A program made the translations under genes and the position numbers. From Terebella lapidaria (Eukaryota; Annelida; Polychaeta; Terebellida; Terebellidae), in assembly GCA_949152475.1 (NCBI GenBank), contig OX424560.1:5084001-5148000 (forward strand): a stretch of 64,000 nt of DNA, read 5' to 3'. Below are positions 870-46,610 of this stretch, piece after piece; position 1 is the stretch's first letter; every line of letters begins with the position of its first letter. The notes below the pieces were generated by a model. It made no database searches, was not told where the DNA came from, and was given only the letters and a program-made list of their open reading frames with translations.

Positions 870-3800
870 CATTCAATCATCAATCAATCAATTTATTTGG
901 AAACGTACATGTGATGGCACAAAATTAACAGTGATATTTACAGGATACGATTCCAAGACATTACAAGAGCCGTTAGGCTGTGATTCCAGGTAATTTATAC
1001 AGTGTATTGAATATTAATTAAACACATCTTAAATCATGGAGTTGTAATGCCTTAATAATTGGGGGGACAGAAGGGAAAACATACGTTTATTGGGGGACAA
1101 AGAACGGAGAGAAAAACCCTAAACCGATACACTCAAACGTTAAGGACAGAATACGTAGACAAATATGCAATCATACTCAGTATCACGAGACAAATAGACG
1201 TAGACAGTAACCTATGCTAAGCACGGAACACGTGGACAAACACATACGATCTTACACATAGACACGAACACATGGATGAACACACACAGACATACACAAA
1301 TACAATAACATACAGCTCATTCATATACAACTCATTCACGTACAGCTCGTTCACATGCGTTCACATTCACTATTATAACACAGTCATAACATGGAAGAGC
1401 TCATTCACACCTGCCAGTTGAAACAGTGTCACAGACCCTTGCCCGACGAAGTAGAACGCCAGGTCAGCTGCCGCGCAGCAGAACGACGCCACATGCACCG
1501 AAGTGTGAGATTCACTTTAGTAAGGTGTGGTTTTAACATATGATTCAATATTGTTTGATGAGTAATCTTTTGACTCGATTGCTGAAGCGCTTAACCGACT
1601 TAGATTCTTTTATATCAGTGGACAATTCCTGCCATAATTTAGGACCAATATGTAAATATGATTGGATAGATAATAAGGAGTTTTTACTGTCAAAGTATGG
1701 ATTATTTTTCTGACGTGTATCATGGCCATGGATTGAACTTACTGGTTTAAAGATTTCATTTAGGTTCAAGGGAAGATTATGGTTAATTTGATTATACATG
1801 AATTTCAAGGTATGTAATCTTTTGAGGTCATCTATTTTGAGTATATTCAACTGTTTAAAAAGATGATTTACCGGTGAGTTGTAGGTTTCGCTGAAGATTG
1901 CTCTCATGACTTTCCTTTGCATTATTTCTAATGGTTTGATTAGTTGTTTAGCGGCGTTACCCCATAACATAACGCCATATTCTATATATGGTTGAAATAA
2001 TGAAAAATATAATGTTTTTAAGTGACCTACCTGCAGGGTATTTTTGGCTGATTTTATAGCAAATTGAGCACTCGATAACTTTGATTTAATATGTTTAAGA
2101 TGAATGTCCCATTTTAGTTGATCATCAATAATTAACCCTAAAAATTTTGCATATTTCTCTCTTTTAATGATATTATCACCAATACGTATGTTTTCAGTGT
2201 GGTCTTGTGGCTGACTTCTTTTATAGTCAAAAACTATAAAGGTTGTTTTCCCTACATTTAGTGACAACTTATTTGCCCTAAACCAGTCTGTTAGCACCGC
2301 AAGATCTGTGTTTGTATTTTTATAAAGTGTATTGATATTAGGGGCAGACGAATAGATAGTGGTATCATCTGCGAATAAAATGCAATTTGTTTTAGATAAG
2401 GAATTAGGCATATCGTTAGTATAAATAATGAACAATAGGGGTCCCAAGATTGAACCCTGAGGAACACCACATTGTACCGATTCTAGATCCGATTTTTTAT
2501 CTTTATATTGGGTAAAATGTTTCCTATTAGTCAAATAACTTTTGAACCATTGAAGGGGGATACCGCGGATGCCGTAATAGCGTAGTTTATCAATTAGAAT
2601 ATTGTGATCTATAGTATCGAATGCTTTAGATAAATCGAGAAATGTTGCCAGGGTATGCTGTTTATTGTCTAATGCATTGATAATGTGTGTGCATAGTTCA
2701 GTGATTGCCTGTATAGTTGAATGCTTGGATCTAAATCCATACTGACTAGCAAATAAGAACTTAGTCATGTAATGGTAAAGACGTTTATAGATAACTTTTT
2801 CGAACACTTTAGATATTGAAGCTAATAGGGATATTGGACGATAATTAGAGAAGTCAGTTTTATCTTTGGATTTATAGACAGGTACTACTTTTGCTGTTTT
2901 TAGTGATTCAGGGAATATGCCAGTTTCAATAGATTTATTTATTAGAATTACAAGTGGATTAACGATGGATTTGTTCAATTGTTTTAGGAGCCAGGAAGAG
3001 ATACCGTCATTGCCAGATGATCGCTTAGGTTTCAGTTCAGATATAATCAACGATACTTCATTTACATCAGTAGGGCTCAGATAGAGACTCGATTTCGGGT
3101 CCGCTTGTTTAACTTTTAAATAATGATGAAATGGTTTAGAGGGTTTTGGTATCTTGTTTGATAATGAGGGTCCTATATGGGTGAAAAAATCACTAAAACC
3201 ATCAGCTATTGTTTTAGGATCCGTTATATCAACATTGTTTACCTTGAATGTGTCTGATATGCCTGTTTTGTCCTTAGTTTTATTGATAATAGATCTCATA
3301 ATTTTCCAGGTCTTGGCGGAGTCGTTTTTGCAGTTGTTCAGAAGTTCTTGATAATATATCATTTTTGTTCGCCTTTTGAGTCGGTTGAGTAAGTTACGTT
3401 TCTGTTTATATTTCACCACTAGGGGGGCAGTAGGTTTTTTGTTTATTGTTTTCTTGAAGAGCTTCTCAATTTCAAAAGATGATTTCATGAGCCCCTTAGT
3501 CATCCAGGGCTCCTTGCGTGTTTGTTTAGGTGATATTGACTTATGTTTTTCAGGTGATATCTTATTAATTATTAACAACAATTCTTTAATAAAGTAGCCA
3601 TAACCTGAGTTAACATCAAGTACATTCAATTTATTCCAGTTTATGCTGTTAAGAGCTGTATTTATGTCATTGATATCATTGTCGTTGATTCGTCTATACG
3701 TAACATAATTTGGTTTAGATGATGCTTTCGGGGATCTAGTCGTACAAGCGATAACCGGTAGATGATCGGACATGTCAACGGTTAGAATACCTGAAAATAA

Positions 3801-4150
3801 ATTACCATAGTTGCCACATTTGATGTATATGTTATCTATGAGCGTTGCCGAGCTGTGTGTGATACGTGTTGGCCGCGTAATTATTGGTAAAAATCCGTTT
3901 GCTATGGTCATTTCCAGAAGTTCAGCAGAGGTCTTATGGTTGTTTATTTGTATGTAGTCGAAGTTTTGGTCAGTACCTATTATGGTATCGCATGATTTAG
4001 TTTGGCTAATTTTGTTTAAAGTTTCTTCATATCGCTGTAAAGATAATGTTTCGGATGTATTAGGTATTCTATAGATTTCACCTACAATAAGATTGCGTGG
4101 TTGGTTAATAATTTCAACAAACAGACATTCAAATTCTCCTTCAATAAAAT
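870..4150 (-). mobile_element. Non-LTR retrotransposon (LINE), 5' truncated
   Basis: The element runs on the minus strand. Its 5' end is cut inside the endonuclease domain near 4150. The 3' end lies near 870 and finishes in a short run of TTGA-type repeats (about 873-895), as seen in CR1/L2-like elements. It sits inside a palindromic element whose arms flank it at 152-260 and 4225-4332. No clear target-site duplication was found. Confidence 0.85.
1545..4149 (-). CDS. LINE ORF2 fragment: endonuclease C-terminal part plus reverse transcriptase
   Basis: The frame is open from about 4149 to the stop at 1545, and the first ATG within it is at 3911. The N-terminal part is the end of an AP-like endonuclease: IIGTDQNFDY, then THSSATLIDNIYI and SDHLPVIA. 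The reverse transcriptase follows with SQYGFRSKHSTIQAI, FLDLSKAFDTIDH (catalytic Asp), GVPQGSILGPLLF and the FADDTTIY core. The C-terminal region is basic and lacks RNase H. The order places it in the CR1/L2/Jockey-like group, and I cannot name the clade. The reverse-transcriptase frame has no internal stop, so the copy is fairly young, but the missing 5' end makes it non-autonomous. Confidence 0.9.
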
Positions 4151-4339
4151 CCTATTGAAGGAGGCAATTCAATGGGGGTTTTGAAAGGCAATTCAATGGG
4201 GAGGATAGGAAACGTTTCATTGTGGAAGGTACAGTTGTGGAAGATTTTGATATTTTAGTTGAAAAGATGTCCAAATGATTTCCGTCCCGAGGGTGAATGA
4301 CAGCCATCTCAGACGCTCCGCGTCGCTCAGGCTGCATCT

Positions 4340-8484: not shown

Positions 8485-15213
<6,729 letters not shown>

Positions 15214-36670: not shown

Positions 36671-36676
36671 TTTATT
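36671..36676 (-). terminator. Candidate poly(A) signal for UBA3 (and the LYR transcript)
   Basis: AATAAA on the minus strand about 230 nt after the UBA3 stop. None is present between the LYR stop and the UBA3 start, so this may serve both ORFs. Confidence 0.45.
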
Positions 36677-36906: not shown

Positions 36907-38232
36907 CTAGTCCATGCAGGATGCTAGCTGGATCTGAAAACGCAGTGAGTTAGGTGTTGTTTGATCTGCGACGTATATCTCGTGTCCATTTTCTAGTCCC
37001 AGTTCCTTGAGACTTTTCTTCAGGTTGGGTTTAGTCGCTTCCTCGATGGACTTGACCGTGGACATGAACAGTGTCTTGTTCTTGCCGTTGACCGTTGTGA
37101 CGATACCGGGAGATTTCAACTGGTAGGTGGCGTTCTCCTTCAGGAAATCTATCAGGTCCTGAAGTTTGTCATCCTCCGAGAAGGTCAGATGTTGCGGGAT
37201 TTGGCTACAAGCGGCACAATTCTCTCTTTTCTCAGCCTCAAACGTGTACGTGTAAATCCCTTCAGTGTCATTAAAATTCATGTAGTTGGTCAGAATTTGG
37301 CAGCAACTTGTCGCACACTTGAAGACTTCAGTCGCGCACGCTGCGGCGATGACGGCATTGGTCGAGGCGACGGCTGGAATGATTCTCTTGATGACGCCCT
37401 GGGTTAGTCGATATGTGACGCCCGTGATGTTGAACTCCTCAGCACGCTGACTTGCCTTGTCAAAGATCCACTTGATGTGTTCTGGATCGTCCCCGTCGAT
37501 GCCCACAGCAGGACCGAAGGGTTTCTCCTGGGGCCAGAGAAGCACCTTGACGTACTCGATACAGTGCTCGGGGAGACGAGGTGTGTGTGCTATCGTACAC
37601 ATTGGGAAGTTTACCTGGGGTGGGTACAAGTCCAGTGTACACTCGATACAAGCAGACATCCCGGGCAAGACAACTCGTGCGTTACCCTTGAAACCTTCAG
37701 TGCCACCGTCGATCATTGGAACGATGCTGCTTTGGTCTAACACTCCATCTTCATAGACGAGCATACTCAATAGCATCCCGTTGATCCAACGACGAGCAAT
37801 TATGGAATCTAAACCACAGACAACGATGTGAAATCCACGGTAAAAGGATGCATCAAAGTCTTGGATCTTCGCGTAATGGGGCACCACTTTACAGCCGGGA
37901 ATTCTTGAGTTGATGAAGTTCGCTGCAACATCAGCCTTCGCTTTGCCGATGTCTGATTTCCTGAAGAGGAATTGACGGTTGAGGTTTGACAGATCGATGG
38001 TGTCCATGTCTATCACGTGGATATTACAGAACCCAAGAAGACCCAGATCTTTCAGGAGTTCACAGCCGAGACCTCCAGCTCCAATCACGAGGAGTTTGCA
38101 GGTGTTTTGGACAAAGTCCAGCATCTCCGGACAAGCCTCAAAATCCGGGTGAGCAAATGGCCCCATTCTGTTTAGGATCTTGTCAACATGATTCCACCGG
38201 CCAGGCCAGGAGTTCCCAATGGGTGAATCCAT
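36907..38232 (-). CDS. UBA3: NEDD8-activating enzyme E1 catalytic subunit, single exon
   Basis: Catalytic half of the NAE1-UBA3 heterodimer, which adenylates NEDD8, carries it as a thioester and passes it to UBE2M/UBE2F for cullin neddylation. The 441-residue ORF is uninterrupted. The nucleotide-binding GAGGLG is at 51-56, [18 protein letters not shown] follows, zinc ligands form CIEC (195-198) and CAAC near the C-terminal third, and the catalytic cysteine is C212 in FPMCTIA. The C-terminal ubiquitin-fold domain that recruits the E2 is present, ending shortly after residues equivalent to the human C-terminus. The ATG at 38230-38232 has A at -3 and G at +4. A TGA in the same frame eight codons upstream blocks extension. 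Human UBA3 has many introns and this copy has none. The LYR microprotein ORF ends 89 nt upstream in the same exon. A functional gene is likely because every key residue is kept. Confidence 0.96.
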
Positions 38233-38321
38233 ATTTGTATCTAGGTCAAGGATATCCTGAGGTCACAATCAAGGTCACAGTATATTTTCGAGACAATCAG
38301 CGGCAGCCACGTATACACAGA

Positions 38322-38634
38322 CTAAATCAATCTTTTCTTCTCCAGGAATACTTGGCCCTTCTGCAAAAACCATACATATACTCCATATACACGTTACACA
38401 AATATAATTATGTTTTGTAAATGTGTTGAAATGTGGAACATCATAGACACAGTCACTCTACATTACTAGTACCTTTATCATGAAATCTATGTCCTCTGGT
38501 TTGCTGAGATTTCGATTGTTCTCAAATTCTTGTCTTATTCGTGAAGTGTAAAACTGTTTGTCAGTGAACTGCAGTTGGCGACTGTAACGTAGGAGCTGTC
38601 TGTAGAGACTCAGGACTTTACTCGAGGCTTCCAT
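38322..38634 (-). CDS. LYR-domain microprotein, MIEF1-MP (MIEF1 uORF protein)-like, two exons
   Basis: Two exons, 38473-38634 and 38322-38360, join in phase 0 to give 66 residues. Exon 1 ends AAG|gtacta; exon 2 is preceded by ggtttttgcag. The protein starts MEASSKVLSLYRQLL, with the LYR tripeptide at 10-12, and continues RQLQFTDKQFY, IRQEF and, from exon 2, KGQVFLEKKRLI then TAG. The pattern matches the 70-residue human protein from the MIEF1 upstream ORF (VLSLYRALLR, RQLRYTD, FY, IRREF, KGLVFLNGK) better than LYRM4/ISD11. The human protein binds mitochondrial acyl carrier protein and takes part in mitoribosome large-subunit assembly, so a mitochondrial role is inferred. The open frame extends upstream of the chosen ATG, but a candidate acceptor (tgttacag, exon side 38683) suggests that part is 5' UTR. 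UBA3 starts 89 nt after the stop, with no AATAAA between. Confidence 0.85.
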
Positions 38635-38689
38635 ATATTTTGGGTTTTGTTCTGATGGCAACACACGGAGAATCAGGAAACACCTGTAA

Positions 38690-39470
38690 CATAAGGACAT
38701 ACTTGCAGGCATCATGCTTGGGCAAAAATTTCCAAAAAAGATAGCCCACTCAAACCAAAACAGAAGCGACCAATTCTCCTGGTGGGCGGTCTGATGACTC
38801 ACAACACTTACGTTTCTATGAAGGAGTATTTTGCGAAAAAATGTCACTTATGAATAAAACCCGCCATCATTATGGGGATACGTGAAACCTCACCCCTAGG
38901 ATTGACACTAGTCACACTACTGTCAACCCAGAAAATATTAGTGTCCAGTTATTAGTGTTTTAAAAAAATTCACTAATTTAGCAGGCGGATAACAGGAATT
39001 TTGACGCTATAAAATATGGGTTTGCTTTTCTGTTTCTGTTATCCACCTGCTAAATTAAATGGCCAGTAAATTTGTCCACTGTGATAAAAATGCTAAACTT
39101 GATGGGCGCTAACATTTCTGGATTTACAGTATTCATATTATCGCTTCTGTTTTGGCCTCATTGGATTATGGTGGTACTGACCTAGATATCTTTATCTGGT
39201 CATGGTCAATCATGTCATTCGTGATCATCATAACATGCTAACACATGTTAGCATGATCAAACATTCTGTACATGCTGTAGTGTAGCCAGTCTAACATATC
39301 TAATAATAGGGAGCACATGTACAACTTTATGATATTCAGTGACAATGATGAGTTAATCAATGGCATAAAATGATAAATACAGATAAAAAGAACATCTGGT
39401 GTGTGATAAAGAACACTTTTCTATCATAAGTTTCCGGATCCTAGGTATGGAAAATTAGTTGGTAATAAAA
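38690..39470. other. Upstream region of the LYR/UBA3 locus and intergenic sequence
   Basis: It should contain the 5' end and promoter of the LYR/UBA3 transcript; no core element is obvious. A hairpin pair TTTAGCAGGCGGATAACAG / CTGTTATCCACCTGCTAAAT lies at about 38977-39056. A perfect 22-bp palindrome CATGCTAACACATGTTAGCATG lies near 39234-39255. Confidence 0.5.
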
Positions 39471-43599: not shown

Positions 43600-46500
43600 A
43601 ATCCTACCTATGGGTACATGATCTCTCCTCTGGCTCCAAATGTTCCAACATACCATCATTTCAATGGGAGCAGTAGCTCAAAGATTGACCACTTCCTGGT
43701 GTCCAGTCACCAAAAGAGCGTAATCTCGGAGATTACAGTACACCCCAGATGCCCAATCAACTGCAGCTCGCACAACGCGATTGAGGCTAAGCTAGCTGTC
43801 TCTCTCTCCAAGGCCTACAGAACCAAACCTCCAAAGGAACAAAAAAGTCCGCTGGGACAAGCTGGATAAAGAAAAATACCAGGCCACCACAAGCAGGCAC
43901 CTTGGGATACTCCTAAACTCTATCGATGAGAACACACCTGCTGAGGTTATACTCCGTAGAGCTAGTAACATCATGTGCAAGGCAGCAGAAGAAGCAGACC
44001 CAGGCTTCAACCGAAAACCGAGAAAACAAAAAACGTTCAAGTGGCATCCTGACCTCATCCCTGCCATGAAGGCGTCCAAGGCAGCCTATGGCAGATGGAA
44101 AGACTGTCCTACACCTGAAACATTGTTCCACCGAAAGCAGGCCAAGCAAGCATTCCGCAGAGCCCAGAGATGCCTTACCGCACAGGAACGGGATATGCTA
44201 CATGCTGACATTATGCAAACCAGCAGTCTTGACCAGCAAAAGATGTTCAAGCTGATAAGGAGACAGCGAACGAATGCCAGGCCCACATCTACACCAAGTA
44301 TCACTTTTCCAAGCCAACCACCAGCCCAGACACCAACCGAGTCCTGGGCCAGTTACTTCGAAGATCTGGCAACTCTAAGCCGAGTGATACTTTCTGTGAT
44401 GCTGCCAAGGAAACAGCACAGTCTATCCACATCCTGCATCAACTACTTATGGCAAACCCTGCATCTCTCCCCCTGTACCCATGGAACAAACCATCCGTGA
44501 CGTCTCCAGCGTAAAGAAGGGAAAAGCGACAGACTGCTTAGGTATCTCTGCAGAGCACATCCAACTGGCATCAAGAGAGGTCTATAGCATCCTCAACCTC
44601 ATCACCAACAAGGTTCTCACTACTGGAAAAATCCCCCCATCAATGAAGACAGGTCTGGTGACTCCTGTGCCGAAGAAGGGCAAAGATACTTCGTCTCCGG
44701 ATGGGTACAGACGCATCACGGTTTCATCCCTTCTTGGCAAAGTTGTGGAGAAAGAGCTGAGGCGACTCTCAGACTATGTGCTGGATAAAGTCCAAAGTCC
44801 GCTGCAGCTCGGGTTTACCGCAGGATGCTCCTACCTCACGGCAGCACTTCTTCTAACCGAGGTACTTTCAGAGGCTAAGGACCTCCATGTGTCACCATGT
44901 CTGACTTTCATGGACGCCAGTAAGGCCTTCGATGTAGTTGATCACCAGGGAATGCTGAACGCCATCTTCGAGCAAGGTATCCAGGGGAAGCTATGGTCCA
45001 TCTTTGATGACATGTATACAGACATCAAGTCCTTGGTGAAATGGAATGGTGACATATCCAGATATATCAGGGAAGCCCAAGGGATCAGACAAGGAGGCCT
45101 TACCTCAACGACCTTGTTCAAAGCAAGAGCGAATAACCTCCTCAGAAGGTATGAGTCCCATCCTAGTGCCTTTAGGATCGGTTCCACAGTTGCTGGCGCG
45201 CTCATGTGTGCAGACGACCTTACGCTAGTTGGTAAAACACCCCTTCATACTCGAATCCTCATAAATGAAGCCCAACAAGATGCCTCAGTGGAACGATACC
45301 TCTTCAGCACGACTAAGACAAAAGCTGTAGCCCCGTACATCAAGGGAGCCGCACAGCCTGAAGATGTGAACCTCCATCTGAACGGAAAGAAACTTGAGGT
45401 TACTGGGTCGGAAACCCACCTGGGAATCATCCGAACAAACAATGTGTCAAACCTCCCAACTGTATCTGCCCGGATTCAGACAGCGAGACGGACAGCCTAC
45501 TCTCTGATGGGAGCTGGACTGCACGGCCTGAACGGGATCAACCCAAAGACTTCCATGCAGCTCTGGGATCTTTATGTCACCCCAGCACTTCTCCATGGCC
45601 TGGAGGCCCTGATCCTAACCCCGTCAGAGTATGAGATCCTCGAGAACTATTACAGAAGCAGCCTAAAAAAATTTCAACATCTCCCAGGCTCTACAGCGAA
45701 TGCTGCAGTCTACCTGCTTGTTGGTGCTATTCCAGCCACTGGCCTCCTCCACAAGCAGCTGTTGAACTTCTTCGTCAACATCGCCCGGCGGACAGAGTCT
45801 TTAGAAAACTCTATTATGAGACGACAGCTTGCAGTCGAAAGCATGGAGTCACACAGCTGGACAGTCCAGGTACGTGAGCTACTTAAACAGTATAACCTCC
45901 CATCAGCCTTTGACCTCATGAGGACCCCTCCCAGGAAGACCAAATGGAAGCAGATGATAACACAGGCTGTCACCTGCTTCTGGGAGCGGAAACTCAAGTC
46001 CGAAGCAAAACAGAAGCAGACTCTTAAGTACCTCAACTTAGAAGCCTGCACTCTGAGAAGTTGTTACCCTGTCTGGGAGCAGCCTAACACAGACAAACTC
46101 AATGTCCTGAAGTCCATGGTGCATGCAAAACTCCTTGTTGGCCGATACCCGTTGCTCGGCGGCTCCACACGCACTAGAGGAAGTGCTACCACCTGCCCCA
46201 TGTGTGCTCTGGACCCAGAGTCAGAGACACACTTCCTGCTGAGATGCCCATCTCTAGCCAAGGCCAGGAAGCCCCATCTCATCAAACTCCACAACCACTT
46301 AGATGACAAGGATGGCACATTGCCAGATGATGACCTGATGAGGATCATCCTTGATCCGACGTGGACGAGCCGAGGAGGAGATGACCTGGCTGAGCTCTAT
46401 GCCACATGCAGAAACCTGTGTTTTGCACTACATCATGCCAGAAGTGTCCAAATCACTGGACAATCGCGTTATGCTCTGGGGCGGTTACCGGTTTTCGGCT

Positions 46501-46610
46501 AAAGGGTACAATACAAAATTTGTTAGCATCGAAACATTACGCACACGGTGCGGTTCGCCTAGAGAAGACAGGCGGGAATTATCGGACAAGTAACAAGTAA
46601 CAAGTAAGGT
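43600..46610 (+). mobile_element. Second non-LTR retrotransposon (LINE), 5' truncated and frameshifted
   Basis: It starts inside the endonuclease domain near 43600 and ends in a short AAGTAAC repeat tail (about 46588-46607). No clear target duplication was seen. Its base composition is more GC-rich than the flanks. Confidence 0.85.
43618..46502 (+). pseudogene. LINE polyprotein: endonuclease end, reverse transcriptase, C-terminal zinc knuckle
   Basis: The pieces lie in order in different frames. Endonuclease remnant at 43618-43845 (HHFNGSSSSKIDHFLVS, SSHNAIEAKL). Linker frame at about 43833-44380 (KVRWDKLDKEKYQ.. to SWASYFEDLAT). Main frame at 44481-46502 with reverse transcriptase motifs (FMDASKAFDVVDH, GIRQGGLTSTTLF, MCADDLTLVG) and a late zinc finger CPMC..HFLLRCP. 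At least two frameshifts, near the A-run at about 43840 and between about 44370 and 44480, break it. The 673-codon main frame is otherwise open, so the copy is not ancient. The exact clade is not assigned. Confidence 0.85.

Follow-up and report, generated by a model that had tools for sequence, protein, structure and literature searches.

In vertebrates, a LYR microprotein called AltMIEF1 or MIURF is encoded upstream of MIEF1. Both AltMIEF1 and MIEF1 are expressed in human cells transfected with the cDNA, the human LYR open reading frame being located in exon 2 (PMC5703645), and the small protein was found to be more abundant than MIEF1 in two cell lines and in colon (PMC6283296). A study from 2026 reported 14 human bicistronic transcripts, MIURF-MIEF1 among them, with an intronless downstream open reading frame in 50%, and proposed that they originated by retroposition next to an active microprotein gene and subsequent read-through (PMC13303939). 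Here we describe a locus of the annelid Terebella lapidaria (assembly GCA_949152475.1, contig OX424560.1, forward strand positions 5,084,001 to 5,148,000; we call this whole stretch of 64,000 nucleotides the window) where a gene for a microprotein apparently of the same kind precedes UBA3, the gene of the NEDD8 E1 catalytic subunit. The tandem looks like one message for two unrelated proteins. With moderate confidence we read it as an annelid dicistronic gene, in which an intronless and sole UBA3, probably a retrogene that replaced its parent, would be carried on the LYR transcript and reached by leaky scanning.

The locus is similar to vertebrate MIURF-MIEF1 in having a homologous LYR microprotein upstream and a longer, unrelated protein downstream. 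Nevertheless, the downstream protein is a mitochondrial fission factor (MiD51) in vertebrates and UBA3 in the annelid, and the annelid LYR open reading frame is interrupted by an intron, that of humans being contained in exon 2. With STREMI-SLC35A4 and the class named 'gene symbiosis' the locus shares a mitochondrial microprotein gene followed by an intronless, functionally unrelated coding sequence; actually, two conserved unrelated open reading frames in tandem, the downstream one intronless, are what we found. It therefore fits the model of retroposition and read-through, with a different downstream gene. Regarding sole intronless copies, the amphioxus SYCP1 gene is a comparable case, a single-coding-exon 'orphan' retrogene that is the only remaining copy (PMC5803294). 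Two tandem open reading frames that do not need trans-splicing are also known from Drosophila, where processed polycistronic mRNAs support the dicistronic gene pairs, 159 in FlyBase 6.04 (PMC4528330). The 'gene symbiosis' class is vertebrate and supported by long reads, and the fly pairs are backed by mRNAs, whereas the annelid pair is known here from sequence alone.

The bicistronic class is thus already known (STREMI-SLC35A4, MIURF-MIEF1), while the pairing of LYR with UBA3 appears to be new within the literature searched. Neither UBA3 nor LYR occurs in the main text of PMC4528330, whose supplementary gene list was outside the search, and 'UBA3' is absent from the main texts of PMC13303939 and of the animal catalogue of upstream open reading frames PMC7530721, the supplements of such catalogues being again outside the search. 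Among the papers listed for queries on dicistronic UBA3 or LYR, and on UBA3 as a retrogene, none mentioned UBA3.

The LYR and UBA3 reading frames

Both genes are on the minus strand (Table 1), on a contig of 44.1 Mb (C6) in an assembly of 761.6 Mb. The order in which the preliminary description had placed them, LYR and then UBA3, was confirmed when the coordinates were checked, and both frames are intact. The LYR frame begins with the ATG at 38634; exon 1 runs to 38473, with the donor AAAG/GTACTAG and the acceptor TTTTTGCAG, and the spliced product has 66 amino acids. This product contains a Complex1_LYR domain (PF05347; E 3.6e-15, 56.1 bits against a cut-off of 24.8). Among solved structures its best match was AltMIEF1 (L0R8F8; E 1.7e-12, 29 of 58 aligned residues identical, counted by hand). 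The top four matches were all AltMIEF1 chains (E 1.7e-12 to 2.3e-11), two of them named 'MIEF1 upstream ORF protein' and two 'Predicted gene 55359', which we take to be the mouse form. The next family was LYRM4 (E 1.2e-5, 28.7 bits against 50.2 bits for AltMIEF1), a ranking that comes from a one-way search of solved structures, without a tree.

The predicted splice is supported by the exon 2 residues, which align in register with AltMIEF1 (KGQVFLEKK and KGLVFLNGK) in an alignment that is gapless across the junction. The SLYR motif occupies residues 9-12, and the length agrees with the about 70 amino acids that characterise the subfamily. By domain, similarity, length and motif position the predicted protein is therefore assigned to the AltMIEF1/MIURF (MIEF1-MP) subfamily of LYR proteins, whose further trait is binding of MALSU1 and mitochondrial ACP on the large subunit. 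It had previously been described as a homologue of the product encoded upstream of vertebrate MIEF1, which agrees with AltMIEF1 being the closest match and with the position and spacing before UBA3, similar to those of an upstream open reading frame. Searching the animal's own genome with the LYR protein gave one match, at this locus. The same protein against 5.8 billion predicted proteins gave 1 candidate and none at E 0.001; as no annotated free-standing relative was reached, the LYR open reading frame seems to be mostly unannotated or beyond a word-based search. Three ATGs in the LYR frame, at 38715, 38712 and 38700, could extend the N-terminus unless they are removed by splicing at TTACAG (38684).

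UBA3 is a single open frame of 441 amino acids, in a frame differing from that of LYR, with ThiF and E2_bind domains. Residues 8-436 align to the solved UBA3 chain 1yov_B, including the segment NFPMCTIA, of which we take PMCTIA to be the catalytic cysteine segment; C212 is invariant in 10 of the 10 sequences chosen. Among the matches listed, the annelid Paralvinella palmiformis has the nearest UBA3 (82% identity), and the two are sisters with support 99/95 in a tree of 31 rows, that is, this sequence and 30 others chosen from the best 120 of 6422 matches. At columns invariant in the other nine of the ten chosen sequences, this UBA3 has 1 private change, the fewest of all. The protein is complete and constrained, without sign of decay, and the matches at both LYR and UBA3 are not due to chance.

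Searched with this protein, the 761.6-Mb genome yielded 12 candidates and 6 matches, of which one is this locus (100%) and the other five have 35-49% identity, and a search for the E2-binding domain matched this locus only. These genome searches are candidate-based and, within that limit, the intronless gene is apparently the sole UBA3 of the animal. Intronless copies are often pseudogenes, so a dead retrocopy might be suspected here, or else a chance neighbourhood or an assembly error. Nevertheless, given the intact 441-codon frame, the single UBA3 found, the lowest number of private changes and the size of the contig, the probability of any of these is negligible; we dropped pseudogene and assembly error as largely refuted.

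Leader, spacing and a possible shared message

The LYR stop codon and the UBA3 ATG are separated by exactly 89 nt, which contain neither an ATG nor an AATAAA or ATTAAA hexamer. Both features had been pointed out in the preliminary description, and they hold, except that the variant hexamer AATATA is present. Counting from LYR exon 2, AATAAA first occurs at 36676, 230 nt past the UBA3 stop. As 88% of 11328 stretches of 89 nt taken at fixed steps along the window lack both hexamers, their absence from the gap is uninformative alone. Over the 1646 nt of the longer stretch their absence fits one message, although this is weak alone too, because 1975 of 11328 stretches of that length in the window are alike. 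Stretches of 89 nt free of ATG numbered 2747 of 18262 in the window, and dinucleotide shuffling of the gap left it without ATG in 0.25% of 2000 shuffles.

The UBA3 ATG (38232) is the next one on the strand after LYR exon 2 and has the strong context noticed earlier, with A at -3 and G at +4, whereas position -3 of the LYR ATG is a T. Measured between these two start codons, the spliced leader is 290 nt long; its 2 ATGs share the LYR frame, and each has T at -3. ATGs in frames other than that of LYR occur at 0 of 290 positions in the leader and at 6 of 112 in the intron (Fisher P 0.0004); counting all ATGs except the LYR start, the numbers are 1 and 6 (P 0.002). Shuffled leaders contained 5.7 ATGs on average, and 3.4% of 2000 had at most two. 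Leaky scanning has this geometry: the first start is weak, no other start competes with it before the second, and the second is strong. We favour leaky scanning over reinitiation because of the T at -3 of the LYR ATG, which the preliminary description had not pointed out, just as it had not mentioned that UBA3 lacks introns.

From these features we infer co-transcription and leaky scanning. One capped mRNA would start at the LYR promoter and be cleaved after the AATAAA at 36676, with UBA3 in the same terminal exon as LYR exon 2. The LYR protein would come from ribosomes initiating at the weak LYR AUG, and those scanning past it would reach the strong UBA3 AUG, the next one outside the LYR frame; reinitiation after the LYR stop (66 codons) may be a minor route. 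The position and spacing of LYR resemble those of an upstream open reading frame, and parsimony favours a shared message. Coupled production had been suggested before, by reinitiation or by a spliced-leader operon, and of this suggestion we would keep the coupling. It had also been stated that both proteins are encoded in one exon. The last LYR exon could indeed be common with UBA3, as a reading of the sequence, whereas LYR exon 1 is separate.

Regarding the operon, UBA3 would be trans-spliced at TGACCTCAG; this sequence is present, although its coordinates had to be corrected from about 38260 to 38265-38257. The spacing of 89 nt is operon-like and the AG lies 24 nt 5' of the UBA3 ATG. Nevertheless, the site falls among degenerate TGACCT repeats whose copies are common and scattered in the window (22 copies of TGACCTTGA against 0.64 expected), and no AATAAA or ATTAAA precedes it in the gap. 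Trans-splicing is described as patchy in the available text of PMC12460157, which names nematodes, tunicates, rotifers, ctenophores and chaetognaths, annelids not being among them; our search for spliced-leader trans-splicing together with annelid and operon returned chaetognath work only. In the 18 nt that precede the AG, the fraction of pyrimidines is 0.61 at both the LYR acceptor and the putative UBA3 acceptor, so this measure rejects neither. The chance that the locus is a spliced-leader operon is in our opinion very slight.

The same AG could also serve in cis. If LYR exon 1 were alternatively spliced to 38256, an in-frame LYR-UBA3 fusion would be produced beside or instead of free UBA3: the donor is in phase 0, the acceptor exon is in the UBA3 frame and no stop interrupts the first 80 residues of the joined frame, junction included. 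However, an in-frame join is expected in 1/3 of cases by chance, and a LYR match was present in 0 of 120 UBA3 relatives (the best 120 of 6422). A LYR+UBA3 query of 507 amino acids, restricted to residues 1-66, gave 36 candidates and 0 at E <=1; no fused protein was found among the predicted proteins searched. A fusion has only a slight chance of being the explanation.

Origin of the intronless UBA3 and weighing of the shared message

Vertebrate UBA3 is multi-exon; our literature search found no papers on UBA3 gene structure. Other E1-type genes of this genome offer a comparison. With ThiF, 32 candidates led to 20 matches. Of the five matches at 35-49% in the search with the UBA3 protein two could be named, UBA2 and a UBA3-like gene on a 15.6-kb contig (C100). 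The UBA2 piece on a large contig has an open frame of 192 amino acids, against 640 for solved UBA2 chains, and at C1:32337343-32342634 and C7:36960264-36966424 the ThiF matches come in four pieces each. At least these E1-type genes probably have introns, judging from the pieces.

The UBA3-like gene (C100:6186-6974) was considered as the parent copy and dropped, since it is open only with TAA and TAG as sense codons. It has 2 TAG and 4 TAA in frame, and with genetic code 6 it is open and matched UBA3 chains at about 7e-80. It looks like ciliate DNA and probably comes from an associated organism. ThiF matches with the same pattern of in-frame TAG and TAA were also seen on contigs C244 and C306.

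Retrogene replacement fits a gene that is both intronless and without a second copy, and UBA3 is probably a retrocopy that replaced a multi-exon parent. A spliced UBA3 mRNA would have been copied back into the genome just 3' of the LYR stop, where the copy would have taken over the LYR promoter before it replaced the parent. LINE-like (long interspersed nuclear element) reverse-transcriptase frames are present in the window, at 1545-4151 on the minus strand (judged by eye) and at 44400-46502 on the plus strand (PF00078), and are a possible source of retroposition activity.

Several observations weigh against this account. Regarding the origin, the two flanks share no words longer than 8 nt and show no target-site duplication, and in-place loss of all the UBA3 introns stands as an alternative to retroposition. 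A poly(A) remnant was not found either, by eye only; such marks belong to young retrocopies and decay with age. Moreover, UBA5 (C2:18157856-18158608) is a single uninterrupted frame of 407 amino acids, the second intronless E1 gene besides UBA3, and in its upstream 1.3 kb, judged by eye, repeat-like sequence was seen and a small host gene was not visible; thus intronless E1 genes do not need a LYR host here. Regarding the message, one weak variant hexamer, AATATA (38286), lies inside the gap. Two or fewer ATGs are also held by 995 of 18204 window stretches of 290 nt, and any 5' leader should be poor in ATGs, LYR codons limiting them too. Finally, the LYR-frame ATGs at 38715, 38712 and 38700 have A at -3 and precede the LYR ATG by 66-81 nt, and others are found at 38692 (another frame) and farther up at 38870 and 38867. 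Unless splicing (e.g. at 38684) removes them or they are not transcribed, these weaken the leaky-scanning step: in the mature leader they would give LYR a better start and make UBA3 harder to reach by scanning. Splicing of the 5' untranslated region at the AG at 38685-38684 would perhaps remove them.

Some of these observations would suit two separately transcribed neighbours, where UBA3 has a promoter inside the LYR gene (in the intron, exon 2 or the gap) and LYR transcripts use a poly(A) site, weak or non-canonical, that is located either in the gap or within UBA3. A retrogene can acquire its own promoter, the intronless UBA5 shows no small gene close upstream by eye, AATATA could serve in the gap, and the frequency of hexamer-free stretches of 1646 nt means that the lack of the hexamers here is no proof of read-through. 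However, neither AATAAA nor ATTAAA occurs between LYR exon 2 and the point 230 nt beyond the UBA3 stop, and out-of-frame ATGs are missing across the whole leader from LYR to UBA3, not just near UBA3. We regard two separate neighbours as unlikely, though far from negligible, and keep the shared message as the preferred reading.

Partners of the LYR gene and other features of the window

The preliminary description suggested that the LYR upstream open reading frame had changed host. This is probably backwards, as it implies that MIEF1 came first. Two further chains deposited as 'L0R8F8' match the annelid LYR weakly (6yxy_EJ, E 1.5e-4; 7am2_CD, E 0.0023); both entries are presumably kinetoplastid mitoribosomes, in which case the microprotein would predate its pairing with MIEF1 by far. 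In a survey of eukaryotes, MIEF1-MP is one of several LYR subfamilies (PMC11293456). Taken together, these matches and the survey point to a LYR microprotein older than either arrangement, and its pairing with MIEF1 or UBA3 is likely to be the younger event. We read MIEF1 and UBA3 as two separate partners of LYR and not as a move from one to the other.

A more general idea, which we put forward tentatively and which may well be wrong, is that the AltMIEF1 LYR gene is a repeat host, with an always-on promoter and a leaky start, into which MIEF1 and UBA3 moved independently. The supply of NEDD8 E1 would then depend on a mitoribosome-assembly gene, and scanning would set the ratio of mitochondrial translation to neddylation.

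If the shared message is real, the same mitochondrial microprotein would have been paired a second time, independently and in a different animal phylum, with an unrelated gene downstream, and the locus tests the 2026 proposal that bicistronic transcripts come from retroposition beside microprotein genes. An essential E1 enzyme would then depend on the promoter of another gene and on ribosomes scanning past the start codon of that gene, and the annotation of such worms could overlook a conserved mitochondrial protein that lies concealed in a '5' UTR' (untranslated region).

Regarding the pairing in relatives, a search of contigs for their UBA3 locus returned one distant bacterial ThiF locus only (40% identity), and a search of viral contigs with the UBA3 locus gave no match. 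The features of the locus are collected in Table 1.

Table 1. Positions of the LYR and UBA3 features in the window
Feature	Position	Strand	Basis
LYR microprotein (AltMIEF1/MIURF-like), coding exon 1, residues 1-54	38473..38634	minus	homology, PF05347, single genome match
LYR intron, 112 nt, GT..AG, with 6 ATGs	38361..38472	minus	
LYR coding exon 2 with TAG stop (38324-38322), residues 55-66	38322..38360	minus	in-register AltMIEF1 alignment
Intercistronic stretch, 89 nt, TGACCT-repeat-like sequence inside	38233..38321	minus	
UBA3 (NEDD8 E1 catalytic subunit), single exon, 441 amino acids and stop	36907..38232	minus	
AATAAA, first after LYR exon 2, candidate shared poly(A) signal	36671..36676	minus	
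TGACCTCAG, acceptor proposed in the preliminary description	38257..38265	minus	
Acceptor-like AG (TTACAG) 5' of the LYR ATG, possible end of an intron in the 5' untranslated region	38684..38685	minus	weak, sequence only

Elsewhere in the window, the copies of TGACCTTGA show a partly regular spacing near 12.2-12.9 kb (12189-12879) and are otherwise scattered. At 9767-10519 on the minus strand there is an open frame with a match to ATP synthase alpha/beta (PF00006), with a tandem protein repeat ahead of it in the same frame.
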